DNA of 64,000 nucleotides, taken from the NCBI GenBank assembly GCA_947568835.1, contig OX387604.1, forward strand, positions 6,789,860-6,853,859. Reading direction: 5' to 3'. Below, piece by piece: positions 2,899 to 60,275 of this stretch; positions within the stretch are counted from its first letter, which is position 1; every line of letters starts with the position of its first letter. The translations under genes and the position numbers were made by a program. This DNA is from Protonemura montana (Eukaryota > Arthropoda > Insecta > Plecoptera > Nemouridae). The notes under the pieces were generated by a model. The model had not been told where the DNA came from, searched no databases, and saw only the letters and a program-made list of their open reading frames with translations.

Positions 2899-3135
2899 TC
2901 ACGGTCTAGATGGCAGCCATGGTTGCACCACCATGCCCGGCATCATAATATGAGCGAGTAACAAGATGATTGACGTGCAGGTCGTATGAAGGGGGCAGCA
3001 GGCTGTGTCAGCTTTGTTGGTAGCTTCTTGCAAATTTTTGATCATTCGGGCCCTTGTGTTGGAAAACGAGGCGGTGGTGTGATTCGTGGGAGCCGATACA
3101 TTGCAGTACATTTCGTCGCAGCATGACACGCATAC
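2899..3135 (-). CDS. Ly6 gene last coding exon (CC...CN motif and C-terminal anchor)
   Basis: The acceptor ends GAATTCCAG and the exon starts in phase 0 with VCVSCCDEMYCNVSAPTNHT, which carries the diagnostic Ly6 C-terminal motif. Then comes a Ser/Thr-rich stalk, an ACCPLHTTC segment and the hydrophobic run TSIILLLAHIMMPGMVV, ending QPWLPSRP and TGA. The polar final residues are less typical of a GPI signal, so a single transmembrane anchor is also possible. Confidence 0.9.
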   Translation of the reverse strand, partial: VCVSCCDEMYCNVSAPTNHTTASFSNTRARMIKNLQEATNKADTACCPLHTTCTSIILLLAHIMMPGMVVQPWLPSRP

Positions 3136-6100
3136 CTGGAATTCAACGCACACCTTACACCAACGCATTTCACCAAAATCAAGCGAAACTCTCTGTCAAC
3201 GACATTTTGCAAATTTGATGCAAGGAAATGTAGTCAACAAATAAAGTTTTTAGCACAAAGCTTACACAGTATTTCACTCTGCTTTAAGGGGATTGTATCG
3301 CCTCCACCATCTTTTCCTGAAGGTTCCAGGGAACAATATTCAATTTTTTTTTTAAATTCTTTATTTGACCAACTAAAAACTCGTTTTACGGGTACATTTT
3401 CCGGAAAATCCGCTCTAAAATAAAAAGGACATTTTTAACACTGGATATGACTACGAAGGGAGGATTTTCAAAATGGTTGGCTCATATATTTTATTTTTAG
3501 TATGTGTAGTTTGGTAGTGTTGACAGATTTTCCAAATTTGGGATCCACGCTGCTACGAAAACTCTTTTTTTTTAACAAAGAAAAATGCCCTGAACTCTGG
3601 GCTGGTCTCAGCAGGGTCTAATGGGCTAAGCTCGACCACGCCACACTGGCACCCATGCAGGTTTCAAGTTGGCCCCATTCGCTGGCCTCAGAGGGGGCCA
3701 GTGAGTAAAGCCCAACCATGCCACCCTGGCACCCAGGCTACACACCTGGCACCCAAGCCCCATCTACAGCCCGTACTCTGGGTAAGAAGCCGTTGTCGCC
3801 ATCGTTTCCCTCATGGTACAATGCAACACCTCCATTCCAAAAAAGGTTGCCGTTTTAAACATAAACTAATTCGTGTCCGTCTGTGGGGTTCCTTAATACG
3901 TAATCATTTCAATTATGTTAATTTTCGTTAAGATGTCGTATGGATTGACACAGAACTGTCATTCTCATCAAATATACTAAAATCGTCTCTTGAAGCCAGT
4001 GTCCAAATAGCTCAATGGTTCAGAGCAACAACCGCGAGGTCGGGGTGGAGATCGCCACACGGTGGAGATCGGGGTTTGAGTCCGCGTTCGAGTATCTATT
4101 TTTGAGACGGTTATATTGTTGTTAATAATAAAATACCCCGCGCATTGCAAGCGTTTGCAATTTAAGTAAGATTTCATCCTAATACAGCAACAAATCCAAC
4201 GTCAAATTGGAGTTATTCGAGTTTGACAGGTTGTGACGTGATATAGCGTCACTAGAATCAGAGTGACAGTGAGTATTCACAACCTCATGGTTCTACTCCT
4301 TGGAAAACTGTCATTTTCATCAAATACACTAAAATCGTTTCAAAAAGCCAGTGTCCAAATAGCTCAATGGTTCAGAGCAACACTCGCGATAAGTCGAGAT
4401 CGGGGTTCGAGTACGCGTTTGGGCATCAATTTTTGAGACGGTTATAGTGTTGTTAATAATAAAAAAAGTCATTCATCTTGTTTATCAACCTCTCAACAAA
4501 ATGGATTTGTGGAGGAATCCTGCTATTTGCGTTGTACTGTCCTTCGGAAGGGACGTTAAGCCAGTGGTCCTCTTAGTGCTCTTCGATAGGAGTAGGCTAC
4601 GTGCCGGCACCGGCTTTCCATTTAACGCTGCGCTTAGTTTTACATTTTATTAAGTTGCGTTATGGTACGTTAACATACGATACGATGAAGTCATAAAGTT
4701 ACACGACAGCCTCGACAGCATGGATTTGTTGTGAGAAATTCTGTTGTTTGAGCTGTTCCGTCCTTCTGAAGAGACTTTAAGCTGGTGGTCCTCTTGTTGC
4801 CGGTACCGGGGTTCCTCTCCTATCTTATAGGCTAGGCTTGGTATGGTTCGTCAACGTCCTTATCGTCTCCAACTTATTTACCGAAGCCATTTTGACCAGT
4901 GTCACAGTTGTTAAAACAGTGCGTCGTTAAACCCTACTACTGAATCAATCAGCTAACGAGCTCGTTATCTATGCTACTGCAGCGGGTCGTTCGCCCAAAA
5001 GGATGACGTATTTTCAGAGTTTATTCTTTGCGGTTATATCTGCAGTTATTCTCTGAATTCAAAGTTTGGTTTAAAATGTATACTTCCGTAGGACGAAGTT
5101 CAAATACTGAACAGATATTTGCAAAAATTAGCACAAAGAGAAAATATTGACAGCGTCAAAATTGATTATGTTTTGCGCAACAGCCTGACAGGGCACTGCC
5201 TTTTGAAATTGACACCACATTTAAATGGAAATTTTCACCTTTTTATGTGTGAGTGTAATTCTCATCGTTTAAACCTGTCAAAGTGTCAGGAAACCTGTGA
5301 AAATAAATTGGGCTGCATCTAAACCAAATTTCCTCGCGAAATGTGCCATCAGACTGATTAAGAGGGCTAGACTCTCTTTTGTTTCGCTCTCCAGTTGTAC
5401 ACTCTTAGTAAAAGCCGTTTGCGTTTTTTGAGTTGTTGAGAATTGCTGGGTTACTACTATTTTATTTTTTATTTGAACCTGTGATGTGGTCACTCAAAGC
5501 CTTCAAATATGTGCATTTTAGCTCTTTTTCAAAACCTCACCCTGCCTGGTTTCTTTTTTCAAAATATCAAAGTCTGACAGGGTAGCTACCATAGACGCAC
5601 TCTTCCTCTTTACGCTGATTTTTTTTTCAGATCTTTTCGAGCAATTTTAGGCCCCCAAAAGTCTGGCCGCGTGGACCTCTGCTCGCATAGGCTGCTCGCA
5701 TATCGCTAACTCTATCGCTAACCGTAGACTAATCACGTTGATGCTTCTTATGCGTAAAATACACGTAAGCAAATCATTTTATGGCACTATGGCATAATTT
5801 ATTCAATGTTATTGTTCATTACACCATGCCGAATGGCTTGGCGTGTTGGAAACACTGGCAAAGTTAGGTCGAAGTTAAGCAGCAACGCGCTGGATCAGGT
5901 ATTGGATGGGTGGAAATCATTCACATGACCAGTTCTGTTTGGGTGAGAGATTGGAGGGATGGAAACTTCAGAAACTTTAAATCGCCTTGCTTCGCAACCT
6001 CTCGACAGCATAGATTTGTGGAGGAATCCTGATGCACGCGTTATTTAGCCAGTAGTCTCCTTGGCGCTCTTCGATAGGAATAGGTGCCGGCACCGGATTT

Positions 6101-9100
6101 CCCCTCTTTCCTTCGAGCCTGGGTTAGGTGCATCATCTTTCTCATCCTCACATTCACCGACGCCATTAGACCAGTGCCACAGGGCCAGTTGTCGAAACAG
6201 TACGTCGTTATACTTAAACCCCACTAATCAATCAATCGATCAAATACGTGATCATGAAATCCTGAGATCATCAATGTCGTAGTACCAATTGGTAACAATG
6301 ACTTGACAATGACATTACGCCTTTCAGAGAAGTATAAGAACAGGCTGCATATTGTTCACGACGAATTCCGTAAAAGGGAATATTAACTTCCCATTTGCAA
6401 TAACTCCAAACCTATCAAACGCATTGTTTTTCCTAAGCCTTCAGGTTATTAATTATCATCACCAAGACAACAGACAATGTAGTTCGCTGCACATTGTAGC
6501 TGAGTAGTGTCACACAAATATTCTGCCCGCGGTGAATAAAAACAACTTTCTCACATTTCCGGTCCCTGGAGGCAGAAAATTCTTACACGGAATTCGAAAC
6601 ACAATGAAACTGGTGATGAATGCCAATCTTCAATGTTAACATTGACAAAAATGGCCAAATATAATCTCTTTTCATAGTCCCCTACGAGCGTTATTCCATT
6701 CCATTTCTCGCGACGAAAAGAGACAACGCCGTTCATTTGTTCCACTAGCGATGTCGACAAAAAAGAAATTCACGTGCGCTTCTCTTGGCGGGAAAAGTTG
6801 CATAAACCCCTCAGGAGCGATCGTCACTTGAGTATACACAGTATTTTATACTTCTTTTCGCCTTGAGAGTTGAGAAAGACTAGATAGAGTGATGTTTGGT
6901 ACACTCCGTGCTGTGGCTTGCAATAATCTGTCCCGCAATCCAGAGCTGTGTTTGAGAGGGAAGCCTCCCTAGCGTACCACGAATGCAAATACCCTTACAT
7001 TCCTGGGATATCTGCTACACTAGGATTCTCTATGTTCAAAGACTCAAATGTCACAGCGTTGCTTTAGAGTTTAGACTAACAGCAGGAATCTACGAAACAG
7101 CGTTTTATACTCCACAGTATTCTATCTAGGGGCTATATAAATCCATCCAGAGCAAGAGCACATGCAATTAATAATTCTCCGTGTGGCTTACTTTCTGTGA
7201 ATCAATTTGAAGACAGCCGACGCGTTCCGTGGAGCATTCGGTGTGATCTGCACATTTCTTGTTTACAACGACACTGTCTCCACGAGAATCCATTATATGC
7301 AAAGTGTGACAAAAGCTTTCGCCTGTGAGAGAAGAAACAAATTACTGGTGTGATCATTTTCTGCCGCTGCGAACATTATATATAGTATAGCACCTCCTAT
7401 AGTACATTTACGTGATGAATGTTCTGTCTGGCATTTGTATGGACTGTTTCGTTTCAATTTCAGTAGAATTGAGGTCTAAAATTAATTTCGTCTCTGGCTA
7501 TTTTTGTGTAACTGAAATATTTGTGACGCGTTCTGCGTTAAATCCCACGCTTATGATTTCTGATATTAACTCATTTTCCATGTTAGATACCAGAGACGTT
7601 GGAAATCAAAATGCCATCCACTAAGTAACCTTAAGTGCAAACTTGTCCCTTCAGTTTCAATTCTGTAAGCTCTAGGATTCAGTCAGGACGATCTGATTTT
7701 CGAGTGATGCTGAAGTTACTGAGGGGAAATTGAATTTCCTTTAAATGGAGATCACTCCTTTTACGATAAATTGCTAGAAATACAAACCACCCAAGCTCGT
7801 AGAAACAGCATGCGCCTTCGCGTATTGCCAAAATCTCAATATTTTAAGTGTGGTCGGAACTAGGATCGTAGGAGAGAAACGGTATTTGGGACCATGGGCC
7901 CTAAAAAGGGATCAAGGACCAAGAAGAACCAAGGACGGCGGCCAAGGACTGGGACTCGACACGCAGGATTCATGCATGCTGCTATTTAGTCGGATCTCAC
8001 CTCTGGGACACGGACGATCGATAGCATATCGATTACACACCAAATTATCCGACACGTTTACGCATGTGTAGCACGTGACACCATCTGCAATCCAATTAAA
8101 AGGCAATAAGAAAGCTGAATCTCGCACATTCTGCGCCGCTTTCTACCTATCACGATGGCAAATGTTCCGTGCAAGTTCGTTTTCATTTTGATACCCTCTT
8201 TTGAGACTTAAAATAACGAGCTCTTTAGGGGGTTGAATTTGACCTGTACGATATGAATATATCGTTATTTTCTTACAAGCCATGGGGCAAGAGGTTTTTG
8301 TGAGCATCGCAGAATGGTTCGAGATGGTGAGATGAAGGTGAGATGGTTAAGATTAAGGAAACAGAGCATGCAGCATGCCATGAGAATTCAGGATACACTG
8401 ATCCTTCCCGGTGAACGTGAACTATAAAGTCAAACCGGTGGCGCACGAATACAGAGGGAAGCAAATTTATCACCAATGCCGAGTGCCGAGAAAATAGCTT
8501 CGTTTCTTTATACCCCATGCACTCGGTAAGTTGTTCGTATAAAGTTAGAGGGTTGAAATCTTGATTATGTTATCTCATGCGGCGCGAAATACAAGATCTA
8601 GTTGGCCATCGTTTATAGTAGTTCCCTAGTTCCCAGTTCTCTGTTCCCAAGTCCAAGCAGTACCCAGCAGTTCCCATGGTTTGCAAATTTAACTCCAACT
8701 CATTGTGCATCGCGTTAACATGCGTATCGTACCGCCGCCGGCGAAGCGGCTAACATAAATTTTATGATAATTAATGAATATCCACAGAATACGATCGCCT
8801 CTGAAATAACAACATGGTCTTGTTCCTCGTATTTCCTTCATAATTATGCCAAACTTCGAACAAAGCTAATTATTTTGGTGTAACTACATGTGTTATCGTA
8901 TGATAGTAAGCCAAAATATGATCGATATATAGCCATGCTCATTGATCTTTTTGACAGCCATGACGCAAGGAAGATTAAAACATAGTTCGTAGGGTGGAGG
9001 AGCTCACTTAATTTTCGTATTATTATTCCACGACATAAGATGTTCTAAAACAATTTGTAACTTCTATGTTTCTTGTGTTTTATTCATAATGAAGCGAAAC

Positions 9101-9394
9101 TTTGCACGCAAGGCCAATTCGACACTCGCCAATTATGCCAGACAGACAGGGCAGATTATTAGCATAGCAGAGATTATTTTAGCGGCAGAAAGCTCAAGGC
9201 TGGAAGTAACTGGAAGATTGCTTACTTTTCGTCGCGTTCGTTTCCTTGTGTTGAGGGAACCTCGAGGGTTTGCGATCATTGGCGTGGCTGTGACGGGCGT
9301 CGTGATTCTCGGTGTAATTTTGACTGTCACGGGCACTCGTCGACGATACAAGCACCACGAGCCAGCCAAACAGCCACCCGCAACGGCCATTCAT
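2899..9394 (-). CDS. Ly6/uPAR-family (three-finger) secreted or membrane-anchored protein, 4 coding exons
   Basis: Join, on the minus strand: 9394..9226, 8084..8001, 7322..7192, 3135..2899 (169+84+131+237 = 621 bases, 206 residues plus TGA). Every junction is GT-AG and the phases match (1, 1, 0). Residues 1-21 are a signal peptide with a hydrophobic core (WLFGWLVVLV). Residues 22-57 are a hydrophilic linker. Residues 58-140 are a Ly6 domain with cysteines at 61, 64, 73, 82, 89, 108, 114, 121, 130, 133, 134 and 139, opening CYTC and closing VSCCDEMYCN. N-glycosylation motifs occur at NYT, NAT, NVS (twice) and NHT. A hydrophobic stretch (about 184-197) before a short polar tail suggests a GPI signal or membrane anchor. 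Introns are 1141, 678 and 4056 bases; the last holds SINEs. Ly6 proteins in arthropods act at the cell surface, for example in channel regulation and septate junctions; the partner here cannot be inferred. The domain call is firm; the ortholog is not identified. Confidence 0.9.
3625..3757. repeat. diverged 80-bp tandem duplication inside the last Ly6 intron
   Basis: A segment around CCACACTGGCACCCATG recurs 80 bases later as CCACCCTGGCACCCAGG. A third short CTGGCACCCAAG follows. Between the copies CTGGCC and GGGCCAG can pair as a hairpin. Confidence 0.5.
3954..4133 (+). repeat. tRNA-derived SINE unit, copy 1 (expanded head)
   Basis: From 4001 the sequence reads GTCCAAATAGCTCAATGGTT, which has an A-box-like core. 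GGGGTTTGAGTCC, the B-box equivalent, comes later. The head is about 20 bases longer than copy 2 because GGTGGAGATC is duplicated. The body runs through TTTTTGAGACGGTTAT to a GTTGTTAATAATAAA tail. Homology with copy 2 starts some 45 bases upstream of the tRNA-like head. Confidence 0.6.
4306..4466 (+). repeat. tRNA-derived SINE unit, copy 2 (tRNA-like head at 4353..4425)
   Basis: The 73-base head begins GTCCAAA and ends TTTGGGC plus A; these ends pair as a 7-bp acceptor stem including one G-T pair. It has TAGCTCAATGGTT (A box) and GGGTTCGAGTAC (B box). The anticodon and T stems pair poorly, so this is a tRNA-derived SINE head, not a tRNA gene. The tail is GTTGTTAATAATAAAA, directly followed by a 5S-SINE body. 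Confidence 0.65.
4467..4652 (+). repeat. 5S-SINE body fragment joined to the tRNA-type unit
   Basis: Contains TTTATCAACCTCTCAACA, GGATTTGTGGAGGAATCCTG and TCTTCGATAGGAGTAGGC, matching the body of the SINE at 5829. It has no 5S head; the preceding tRNA-derived unit takes its place. Confidence 0.65.
4705..4955 (+). repeat. 5S-SINE body and tail fragment
   Basis: Begins CCTCGACAGCATGGATTTG and runs through CCGGTACCGGGGTTCC to CGTCGTTAAACCC and TGAATCAATC. The tail matches the end of the 5829 copy. Confidence 0.65.
5829..6241 (+). repeat. near-complete 5S-rRNA-derived SINE (about 410 bp)
   Basis: The head has GTTGGAAACACTGG, GAAGTTAAGCAGC and ATTGGATGGGTGG as in 5S rRNA. The family body follows, and it ends CGTCGTTATACTTAAACC and AATCAATCAATC. 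It lies in the last Ly6 intron, in the opposite orientation to the gene. Confidence 0.75.
6242..7191. other. remainder of Ly6 intron 3, no feature seen
   Basis: AT-rich intron sequence between the SINE and exon 3. I see no repeat family or conserved frame in it. Confidence 0.5.
7192..7322 (-). CDS. Ly6 gene coding exon 3 (middle of domain)
   Basis: The acceptor is a strong pyrimidine tract ending TCTCACAG and the donor is AAA|GTAAGC. The 131-base exon encodes ESFCHTLHIMDSRGDSVVV then NKKCADHTECSTERVGC, giving four more cysteines. It begins by completing Gly85 (G|GC) and ends in phase 0. Confidence 0.9.
8001..8084 (-). CDS. Ly6 gene coding exon 2 (start of three-finger domain)
   Basis: The 84-base exon is symmetric (phase 1-1). 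It follows an acceptor rich in pyrimidines that ends TTGCAG and is followed by the donor AGAG|GTGAGA. It encodes GVTCYTCVNVSDNLVCNRY and then AIDRPCPR, with four cysteines in typical Ly6 spacing. The phase 1 intron between signal peptide and first domain exon is the usual position in this family. Confidence 0.9.
8627..8680. repeat. degenerate AGTTCCC repeat in Ly6 intron 1
   Basis: AGTTCCC, AGTTCTC and AGTACCC variants recur about every 8-14 bases. Weak and low copy. Confidence 0.4.
9226..9394 (-). CDS. Ly6 gene coding exon 1 (signal peptide and linker)
   Basis: The start is the ATG at 9394..9392, preceded by GAAG, which puts A at -3. The exon encodes MNGRCGWLFGWLVVLV, a typical signal peptide, with likely cleavage after STSA. 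A polar His/Asn-rich linker ending ETNATK follows. The donor reads AAAA|GTAAGC and leaves one base (phase 1), which joins AT of the next exon to make Asn57. A GTG six bases upstream is in frame but is not a likely start. Confidence 0.85.
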
Positions 9395-39235: not shown

Positions 39236-39828
39236 GCGTCGCCTGCCTATCCATCTAGTGCAGATCCTGACCGATCATAGAGCCTGCCTATCCATCTCCT
39301 CTTGATCCTGTCCGACCACAGAGTCTGTCTATACATCTCGTCCTGATCCTGATCGTCAAGAGGGCCTGTCAATCCATCTAGTCCAGATCCTGACCGATCA
39401 CAGAGCCTGCCTATCCATCTCCTCTTGATCCTGTCCGACCACAGAGCCTGTCTATACATTTCGTCCTGATCCTGACCGGCAAGAAAGCCTGTCTATCCAT
39501 CTCGTCCTGATCCTGACTGGCAAGAGGGCCTGTCTATCCACATCGTCCTGATCCTGATCATCAAGAGGGCCTGTCTATCCATCTCGTCCTGATCCTGACT
39601 GGCAAGAGGGCCTGTCTATCCATATCGTCCTGATCCTGATCGTCAAGAGGGCCTGTCTATCCATCTCGTCCTGATCCTGACCGGCAAGAGGGCCTGTCTA
39701 TCCATATCGTCCTGATCCTGACCGGCAAGAGGGCCTGTCTATCCATCTCGTCCTGATCCTAACTGGCAAGAGGGCCTGTCTATTCATTTCGTCCTGAACC
39801 TGCCCGGCAAGGCCTACTCGAGATCCGT
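39236..39828. repeat. 41-bp tandem array (about 14 copies) with a 123-bp higher-order unit
   Basis: Unit core CTGTCTATCCATCTCGTCCT, then GATCCTGACTGGCAAGAGGG. Copies start every 41 bases from 39488 to 39775. In the first part three variant units form a 123-bp block: CCATCTAG occurs at 39251 and 39374. The array runs straight into the 14-bp array. Confidence 0.95.
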
Positions 39829-40660
39829 GTGCAGAGTGCCGTGTACAAAGTGTCGTGCTCAAAGTGCCGTGTACAAAGTGCCGTGTGCAAAGTGTCGTGT
39901 GCAAAGTGTCGTGTGCAAAGTGTCGTGTGCAAAGTGCCGTGCTCAAAGTGTCGTGTGCAAAGTGTCGTGTGCAAAGTGCCGTGTGCAAAGTGTCGTGTGC
40001 AAAGTGCCGTGCTCAAAGTGTCGTGTGCAAAGTGTCGTGTGCAAAGTGCCGTGTGCAAAGTGTCGTGTGCAAAGTGCCGTGTGCAAAGTGTCGTGTGCAA
40101 AGTGCCGTGTGCAAAGTGTCGTGTGCAAAGTGCCGTGTGCAAAGTGCCGTGTGCAAAGTGTCGTGTGCAAAGTGCCGTGTGCAAAGTGTCGTGTGCAAAG
40201 TGTCGTGTGCAAAGTGTCGTGTTTAAAGTGTCGTGTTTAAAGTGTCGTGTGCAAAGTGTCGTGTGCAAAGTGTCGACGGGTAAAGTGCCGTGTGCAAAGT
40301 GCCGTGTGCAAAGTGCCGTGTGCAAAGTGTCGTGTGCAAAGTGTCGTGTGCAAAGTGTCGTGTGCAAAGTGTCGTGTGCAAAGTGTCGTGTGCAAAGTGC
40401 CGTGTGCAAAGTGTCGTGTGCAAAGTGTCGTGTGCAAAGTGCCGTGTGCAAAGTGTCGTGTTTAAAGTGTCGTGTTTAAAGTGTCGTGTGCAAAGTGTCG
40501 TGTGCAAAGTGCCGACGGGTAAAGTGCCGTGTGCAAAGTGTCGTGTGCAAAGTGTCGTGTGCAGAGTGTCGTGTGCAAAGTGCCGTGTGCAAAGTGCCGT
40601 GTGCAAAGTGCCGTGTGCAAAGTGTCGTGTGCAAAGTGCCGTTTGCAGAGTGTCGTGTGT
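39829..40660. repeat. 14-bp tandem array (about 59 copies)
   Basis: Unit GTGCAAAGTGTCGT, with T/C variation giving TGCCGT, plus TTTAAAG variants. A marker block (two TTTAAAG units followed by CGACGGGT) occurs twice, 239 bases apart, which shows a later block duplication. Long open frames in several phases are by-products of the repeat. Confidence 0.97.
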
Positions 40661-58136: not shown

Positions 58137-60275
58137 GTGCCCAGTGACGTTTGTCCACGTGGTTCTTGGCCCCAGTGACATTTGTACACGTGGTTCTTGT
58201 GCCCAGTGACATTTGTACACGTGGTTCTTGTGCCCAGTGACATTTGTCCACGTGGTTCTTGACCCCAGTGACGTTTGTACACGTGGTTCTTGGCCCCAGT
58301 GACATTTGTACACGTGGTTCTTGTGCCCAGTGACATTTGTACACGTGGTTCTTGTGCCCAGTGACATTTGTACACGTGGTTCTTGTGCCCAGTGACATTT
58401 GTACACGTGGTTCTTGTGCCCAGTGACATTTGTACACGTGGTTCTTGTGCCCAGTGACGTTTGTCCACGTGGTTCTTGGCCCCAGTGACATTTGTACACG
58501 TGGTTCTTGTGCCCAGTGACATTTGTACACGTGGTTCTTGTGCCCAGTGACATTTGTACACGTGGTTCTTGTGCCCAGTGACATTTGTACACGTGGTTCT
58601 TGTGCCCAGTGACATTTTTCCACGTGGTTCTTGTGCCCAGTGACATTTGTACACGTGGTTCTTGTGCCCAGTGACATTTGTACACGTGGTTCTTGTGCCC
58701 AGTGACATTTGTACACGTGGTTCTTGTGCCCAGTGACATTTGTACACGTGGTTCTTGTGCCCAGTGACATTTGTACACGTGGTTCACGTGCCCAGTGACA
58801 TTTGTACACGTGGTTCACGTGCCCAGTGACATTGTACACATGGTTCTAGTGCCCAGTGACATTTGTCCACGTGGTCCTCGTCCCCAGTGACATTTGTCCA
58901 CGTGGTTCTTGACCCCAGTGACATTTGTACACGTGGTCCTCGTCCCCAGTGACATTTGTACACGTGGTTCTTGTGCCCAGTGACATTTTTCCACGTGGTT
59001 CTTGTGCCCAGTGACATTGTACACGTGGGTCTTGGCCCCAGTGACATTTGTACACGTGGTTCTTGTGCCCAGTGACATTTTTCCACGTGGTTCTTGTGCC
59101 CAGTGACATTGTACACGTGGGTCTTGGCCCCAGTGACATTTGTACACGTGGTTCTTGTGCCCAGTGACATTTGTACACGTGGTTCTTGTGCCCAGTGACA
59201 TTTGTACACGTGGTTCTTGTGCCCAGTGACATTTGTACACGTGGTTCTTGTGCCCAGTGACATTTGTACACGTGGTCCTCGTCCCCAGTGACATTTGTAC
59301 ACGTGGTTCACGTGCCCAGTGACATTTGTCCACGTGGTTCTTGTGCCCAGTGACATTTGTACACGTGGTTCACGTGCCCAGTGACATTTGTACACGTGGT
59401 TCACGTGCCCAGTGACATTGTACACATGGTTCTAGTGCCCAGTGACATTTGTCCACGTGGTCCTCGTCCCCAGTGACATTTGTCCACGTGGTTCTTGACC
59501 CCAGTGACATTTGTACACGTGGTCCTCGTCCCCAGTGACATTTGTACACGTGGTTCTTGTGCCCAGTGACATTTTTCCACGTGGTTCTTGTGCCCAGTGA
59601 CATTTGTACACGTGGTTCTTGACCCCAGTGACATTTGTACACGTGGTTCTTGTGCCCAGTGACATTTTTCCACGTGGTTCTTGTGCCCAGTGACATTTGT
59701 ACACGTGGTTCTTGACCCCAGTGACATTTGTACACGTGGTTCTTGTGCCCAGTGACATTTTTCCACGTGGTTCTTGTGCCCAGTGACATTTTTACACTTG
59801 GTTCACGTGCCCAGTGACATTTGTACACGTGGTTCACGTGCCCAGTGACATTTGTACACGTGGTTCACGTGCCCAGTGACATTTGTCCACGTGGTTCTTG
59901 TGCCCAGTGACATTTGTACACGTGGTTCTTGTGCCCAGTGACATTTGTACACGTGTTCCTCGTGCCCAGTGACATTTGTACACGTGTTCCTCGTGCCCAG
60001 TGACATTTGTACACGTGGTTCACGTGCCCAGTGACATTTGTACACGTGGTTCTTGTGCCCAGTGACATTTGTACACGTGGTTCACGTGCCCAGTGACATT
60101 TGTACACGTGGTCCTAGTGCCCAGTGACATTTGTACACGTGGTTCACGTGCCCAGTGACATTTGTACACGTGGTTCACGTGCCCAGTGACATTTGTACAC
60201 GTGGTTCTTATGCCTAGTGACATTTGTACACGTGGTTCACGTGCGCAATGAGATTTGAACGCGTATTCCTTGTTC
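58137..60275. repeat. satellite-like array, 31-bp unit, about 69 copies, with higher-order repeats
   Basis: Unit core CCCAGTGACATTTGTACACG followed by TGGTTCTTGTG. Most copies carry the palindrome CACGTG. Variants ending GGTTCACGTG carry it twice. A 93-bp (three-unit) block marked by ATTTTTCCAC repeats at 59571, 59664 and 59757. A larger block marked by ATTGTACACATGG recurs 586 bases apart, at 58831 and 59417. The 31-base period cycles through all frames, giving spurious open frames of up to 327 codons. Confidence 0.97.

Follow-up and report, generated by a model that had tools for sequence, protein, structure and literature searches.

A probable insect gene of the LYPD6/LYPD6B subfamily of Ly6/uPAR proteins in Protonemura montana

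Members of the LU (Ly6/uPAR) superfamily are described as having a domain of 60–90 residues with 10 standard cysteines, to which LYPD6 adds an extra disulfide in loop III (PMC6600238). In the literature found, LYPD6 has been studied mainly in vertebrates, with two competing roles under discussion: nicotinic modulation and Wnt co-activation. It is reported to bind LRP6 and to raise LRP6 phosphorylation (PMC8473786), the binding being attributed to an N-x-I motif (PMC6502960), and also to act on α7 and α3β4 nicotinic receptors, with inhibition of α7 (PMC8494132). Here, we describe a gene of this kind in the insect Protonemura montana (Plecoptera). It lies on the minus strand at positions 2899 to 9394 of a 64,000-nucleotide stretch (the window) of contig OX387604.1 (assembly GCA_947568835.1, positions 6,789,860 to 6,853,859), and all positions below are those of the window unless a contig is named. 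No insect LYPD6 gene described in its own right was found among titles and the beginnings of abstracts, which is weak evidence because most subscription journals fall outside that coverage.

The initial annotation had recognized a Ly6/uPAR protein with 12 domain cysteines, to be read by joining four small exons. The joined translation does contain these cysteines, and the family assignment is borne out and narrowed by the searches. In Pfam, the product matches UPAR_LY6_2 (PF16975, Lypd6) at an expectation value (E) of 8.5e-26 and with 90.7 bits, compared with a curated cut-off of 31.5 bits; residues 56-156 of the product lie on positions 5-105 of the 106 in the profile. The general toxin-like family PF00087 is barely passed (21.6 bits against a cut-off of 21.2). 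Among the 177,635 distinct sequences of the PDB, LYPD6B and LYPD6 are found at E 3e-20, 3.2e-20 and 2.4e-18; the remaining rows at E up to 1 are two antibody chains (E 0.16 and 0.2), and no other Ly6, toxin or uPAR chain occurs in that range. The LU domain is 42% identical to that of human LYPD6 and 47% identical to that of LYPD6B, with each of the 12 cysteines matched and 34 columns of the alignment invariant. All ten standard LU cysteines are aligned, and the two further ones fall at the positions of the extra loop-III disulfide of LYPD6. A Ly6 match at the cysteine positions is therefore present, as the annotation had led us to expect. The identity of 42–47% to the solved LYPD6 and LYPD6B domains suggests that the product would adopt a three-finger fold.

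Single exons can also be placed without splicing. Exon 3 alone matches UPAR_LY6_2 at E 5.1e-07 (30.3 bits) and exon 4 alone at E 2.5e-05 (24.9 bits), both under the 31.5-bit cut-off, and a 41-residue piece of exon 3 has just three matches in the PDB with E of 10 or less, two to LYPD6 and one to LYPD6B, the best at E 0.009. It might be argued that open pieces with splice-like ends have been brought together by chance, or that the locus is a pseudogene. As a control, stop-free fragments of the window with the lengths of exons 2-4 were joined at random: the domain of human LYPD6 gives 71.1 bits with the real product and a maximum of 23.9 in 20,000 such joins. The frame, moreover, runs unbroken for 206 residues across four exons and retains 12 of 12 cysteines. 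The intact frame and the random-join control lead us to reject both possibilities, to which we attach next to no probability. With high confidence, we regard the locus, as judged from its sequence, as an insect gene that is intact and belongs to the LYPD6/LYPD6B subfamily. Its parts are as follows.

Exon 1, 9226..9394 (169 nt), minus strand: start codon, putative signal peptide and N-terminal linker, with two N-glycosylation sequons; opens in phase 0 and ends in phase 1.
Intron 1, 8085..9225, minus strand: GT-AG, phase 1; donor score 7.42; 10 of 17 pyrimidines before the acceptor.
Exon 2, 8001..8084 (84 nt), minus strand: start of the LU domain and loop I, with cysteines 1-4 (CYTC...CPR); opens in phase 1.
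Intron 2, 7323..8000, minus strand: GT-AG, phase 1; donor score 10.1; 14 of 17 pyrimidines before the acceptor.
Exon 3, 7192..7322 (131 nt), minus strand: loop II and the first part of loop III, with cysteines 5-8; opens in phase 1.
Intron 3, 3136..7191 (4,056 nt), minus strand: GT-AG, phase 0; 8 of 17 pyrimidines before the acceptor; contains two copies of a tRNA-like dispersed repeat.
Exon 4, 2899..3135 (237 nt), minus strand: remainder of the LU domain (C..CC....CN), followed by the linker, the hydrophobic C-terminal segment and TGA; opens in phase 0.
Tail, 2971..3102, minus strand: residues 140-183, from the last domain cysteine to the hydrophobic segment, with cysteines 174, 175 and 181; span counted from the frame.
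Hydrophobic segment, 2926..2970, minus strand: residues 184-198, mean Kyte-Doolittle value 2.37 over 15 residues, the highest in the protein; likely a signal for attachment to glycosylphosphatidylinositol (GPI) or a membrane segment.

The proposal of four minus-strand exons in consistent phase thus stands: 9394-9226, 8084-8001, 7322-7192 and 3135-2899 give a single frame of 206 residues that ends at TGA and contains 16 cysteines and five N-glycosylation sequons. Twelve of the cysteines belong to the domain (residues 61, 64, 73, 82, 89, 108, 114, 121, 130, 133, 134 and 139) and four lie outside it (residues 5, 174, 175 and 181). The junctions given previously (9225/8085, 8000/7323 and 7191/3136) are exact, each pair of numbers marking the bases at which an intron begins and ends, and they are canonical, with GT...AG in all three. 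In trial joins, moving the start of an exon by one base led to frameshifts and stops; because such a shift destroys the frame, the phase is informative. The residues at the two junctions within the domain, G85 between exons 2 and 3 and K128/V129 between exons 3 and 4, are in gap-free parts of the alignment with LYPD6 and LYPD6B. The strength of the splice sites is indecisive when taken alone: a donor score of at least 7.42, by a matrix and thresholds of our own setting, is reached by 7 of the 371 GT dinucleotides in the region of the gene, and introns 1 and 3 have weak pyrimidine tracts at their acceptors. The start codon is the earliest ATG in its own frame downstream of in-frame stops, and a pair of out-of-frame ATGs lies just 5' of it. 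AATAAA or ATTAAA signals occur on the strand of the gene at 1972, 1960 and 1774.

Both ends of the protein lie beyond the conserved domain. The signal peptide (residues 1-21, approximately, by our estimate) and the C-terminal hydrophobic segment that had been noted are both present in the joined translation. Exon 1, as proposed here, is based on phase, splice site and signal-peptide character, with no homology to support it. When the 55.9 kb upstream were scanned, three frames were found that open with ATG, encode a hydrophobic core and end in phase 1 at a donor of score 5 or more; of these candidates, the proposed exon 1 is the nearest and the best both in signal core and in donor score. At the other end, no donor scoring above 5 occurs from the start of exon 4 to position 2800. 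It is improbable that the domain is correct and the real transcript has a different exon 1 or C-terminal end; in favour of this are the two other candidates that pass the scan, the want of homology for exon 1, and the possibility of first exons beyond the limits of the scan.

How many such genes does the insect have? The genome (258 Mb in 34 contigs) was searched exon by exon, so that all counts from it are lower bounds. No second copy was detected with PF16975, the gene's own sequence or human LYPD6 as queries, and it is in this sense that the gene is single copy. PF16975 finds one place, exon 3 (E 5.7e-4, 27.6 bits, under the 31.5-bit cut-off). With the gene's own sequence, from domain to tail, the three exons that encode it are recovered, and besides them a single weak match at another place (E 0.02). 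With human LYPD6, four matches have E of 10 or less, and the two strongest are exons 2 (E 0.016) and 4 (E 0.48). The general family PF00087 gives one match, on another contig, at E 0.6. The weak place found by the gene's own sequence, C2:1620963-1621100, was considered as a second LYPD6 gene and not accepted: it agrees with exon 4 in 39% of 48 residues, contains one stop and has the pattern VC.RCC...YC. By eye, no further LYPD6-like exon was seen in about 19.5 kb around it, among open plus-strand stretches that had four or more cysteines and a length of 25 residues or more, a rule by which shorter or cysteine-poorer exons would be missed. We treat this place as a possible Ly6-like fragment. 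Outside animals, a pattern search matched three stretches in viral contigs and 17 in contigs of prokaryote genomes, with no confirmed relative in either, as is expected for an animal gene.

What might the protein do? The product would probably be exported by means of its signal peptide and would fold into a single three-finger domain with six disulfides, that is, the five standard ones and the extra loop-III bond of LYPD6. Its hydrophobic C-terminus would then tether it to the outside of the cell, most likely by GPI, and there it would most likely bind a receptor next to it in the membrane and tune that receptor's activity or surface level. We favour such a surface-tethered modulator of a receptor, with the nicotinic receptor as a first guess, which gains support from the reported action of the fly protein quiver on a nicotinic receptor. 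A nicotinic acetylcholine receptor is the likeliest single partner, at a little short of even chances. A Wnt co-receptor of the fly Arrow/LRP6 type is a less likely one, with perhaps one chance in four, and the partner could well be neither, for which we allow slightly more.

A number of observations count against this picture of an LYPD6-type modulator at the cell surface. First, in a typical LU gene, as described, a phase-1 intron separates the exon for the signal sequence from the domain, and a single further intron interrupts the domain at the loop 2 tip (PMC6600238). The phase-1 intron ahead of the domain is present in the insect gene. Within the domain, intron 2 (phase 1) separates cysteine 4 from cysteine 5 and intron 3 (phase 0) separates cysteine 8 from cysteine 9, so that neither is at the loop 2 tip. 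Secondly, the E-values of the human LYPD6 genome search are weak, and exon 3 is not among its matches. Thirdly, a textbook GPI signal has its hydrophobic run at the C-terminal end, in contrast to the insect protein, where residues 184-198 are followed by eight residues (199-206) that are not a hydrophobic run. Of the earlier suggestion of a C-terminal anchor, the hydrophobic segment itself stands and the anchoring is plausible but unproven, with the segment not reaching the C-terminus; a GPI signal there is nevertheless likely from the sequence. Fourthly, the modelled contacts of LYPD6 with α7 (PMC8494132), whose residue numbers we matched to the alignment, are retained in part only. Arg17 is kept, whereas Tyr13 is replaced by Leu, Glu38-Val-Thr40 of loop II by Asp-Ser-Arg, and Arg62-Asp-Ser-Glu65 of loop III is aligned to Leu-Gln-Ile and a gap; with Tyr13 and both loop segments changed, the modelled α7 contact set is not conserved. 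Finally, enhancement of nicotinic currents by LYPD6 has been reported as well as inhibition (PMC6502960), so that the direction of its effect is given both ways, and the N-x-I motif is found nowhere in the 206 residues of the product.

The last point bears most directly on the suggestion that the protein is an LYPD6 orthologue acting as a Wnt co-activator, which would take LRP6/Arrow into ordered membrane domains as zebrafish Lypd6 does. Membership of the subfamily, as seen in Pfam, the PDB and the alignment, is in favour of this, as are the accounts of Lypd6 and LRP6 in reviews (PMC6600238, PMC8473786). The domain of human LYPD6 has a single N-x-I, the NSI of loop II, which we deduce to be the LRP6-binding motif that is meant. 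It is aligned to DSV in the insect protein and to RST in LYPD6B; without an N-x-I, the insect protein lacks the means described for binding the Wnt co-receptor. The slightly higher identity to LYPD6B than to LYPD6 also tells against Wnt co-activation, and we regard this as a rather unlikely role. A modulator of a nicotinic or some other receptor is the likelier reading.

It should also be asked whether the gene is of the quiver/sleepless type, the insect Ly6 genes whose products act on Shaker potassium channels and nicotinic receptors. There is a reason for asking, in that a published table from a meta-analysis lists one honeybee protein under both qvr and LYPD6, side by side (PMC10179490). 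The product, however, does not match the QVR family (PF17064) at E up to 1. The six QVR matches listed for the genome are all on other contigs (C15, C1 and C4), and the three of them that were tested match QVR and not UPAR_LY6_2. One quiver-type match, compared with the PDB, retrieved no LYPD6, and gave only rubredoxin at E 1.2. A quiver/sleepless identity is rejected on the want of a QVR match together with the separate quiver-type genes in the genome, and we consider it very improbable. Tables that name one bee protein both qvr and LYPD6 may therefore mix two genes. The quiver-type exon matches include two within 3 kb (C15:4648207-4651016) and three within 33 kb (C1:14747554-14779906), perhaps a small cluster. 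The gene described here is, in our view, of the LYPD6/LYPD6B type.

Some other features of the window and genome may be recorded. The dispersed repeat of intron 3 is present at 3954-4133 and 4306-4464, with what look like A and B boxes of the transfer RNA (tRNA) type. It occurs in at least 46 places in the genome (40 of 1,891 first-look candidates were scored) and is probably a tRNA-derived short interspersed element; ARAGORN called no tRNA in the window. A further pair of related repeats in the same intron, at 4477-4596 and 5986-6084, are 79-83% alike. A 5S rRNA match at 674-792 on the plus strand (45.5 bits, against a gathering score of 38) is perhaps a relic or a 5S-derived repeat. There are large tandem arrays at 58137-60264 (31-base unit), 39241-39811 (41-base unit) and 39826-40659 (14-base unit), and many of the window's long open reading frames fall in those with 31- and 14-base units; of the 43 long frames, 10 were compared with Pfam, and no family was found at E up to 0.01. 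Elsewhere in the genome, 7tm_6, the insect odorant-receptor family, has at least 129 matches, and none in 14 control genomes, which supports an insect as the source. PF12278 has no match in this genome or in the controls and is uninformative as to the insect order. Seven 7tm_6 exon matches at C14:1574191-1652280 have identical scores and are spaced by 12,986-12,987 bases; they stem either from odorant-receptor units duplicated in tandem very recently or from an error of assembly.

The insect gene can now be set beside its known relatives. Human LYPD6 (PDB 6gbi, 6ib6) shares with it the 12 cysteines and 42% of the domain residues, and is described as GPI-tethered (PMC8494132), with which the hydrophobic C-terminal segment of the insect protein fits. 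In the insect domain, the spacing from cysteine 7 to cysteine 8 is longer by two residues and that from cysteine 8 to cysteine 9 shorter by two; the N-x-I is missing as well, and Tyr13 of loop I is changed to Leu. Human LYPD6B (PDB 6zso), at 47% identity and again with 12 of 12 cysteines, likewise has no N-x-I in its aligned domain, and differs in residues of loops II and III. Quiver/sleepless proteins (PF17064) resemble the insect protein in having a single LU domain, reportedly GPI-anchored and acting on a nicotinic receptor in the fly, but they form a separate Pfam family and come from separate genes in this genome.

Amongst non-vertebrates, a described relative is LyAr4 of the starfish Asterias rubens, an LYPD6-like protein with a reported 67% similarity to human LYPD6, and its authors infer that such proteins emerged early (PMC11595613). 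It comes from an echinoderm, a deuterostome, and is set beside the insect protein by its published description. The insect gene agrees with an early emergence, as a further LYPD6-like member and no new kind of protein, and suggests that LYPD6-type proteins are older than the split between insects and vertebrates. One may go further and suppose that these ancient proteins at first modulated membrane receptors of some other kind than LRP6. The vertebrate LYPD6 branch, once separated from LYPD6B, would then have gained the LRP6-binding N-x-I and with it the Wnt role, and the insect gene, without the motif, would keep the older function. This sequence of events is a speculative one that we think rather doubtful. 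Nevertheless, a member with all 12 cysteines but without N-x-I offers a simple comparison for which role is the older, and it is the missing motif that makes the order of origin of the two functions testable.

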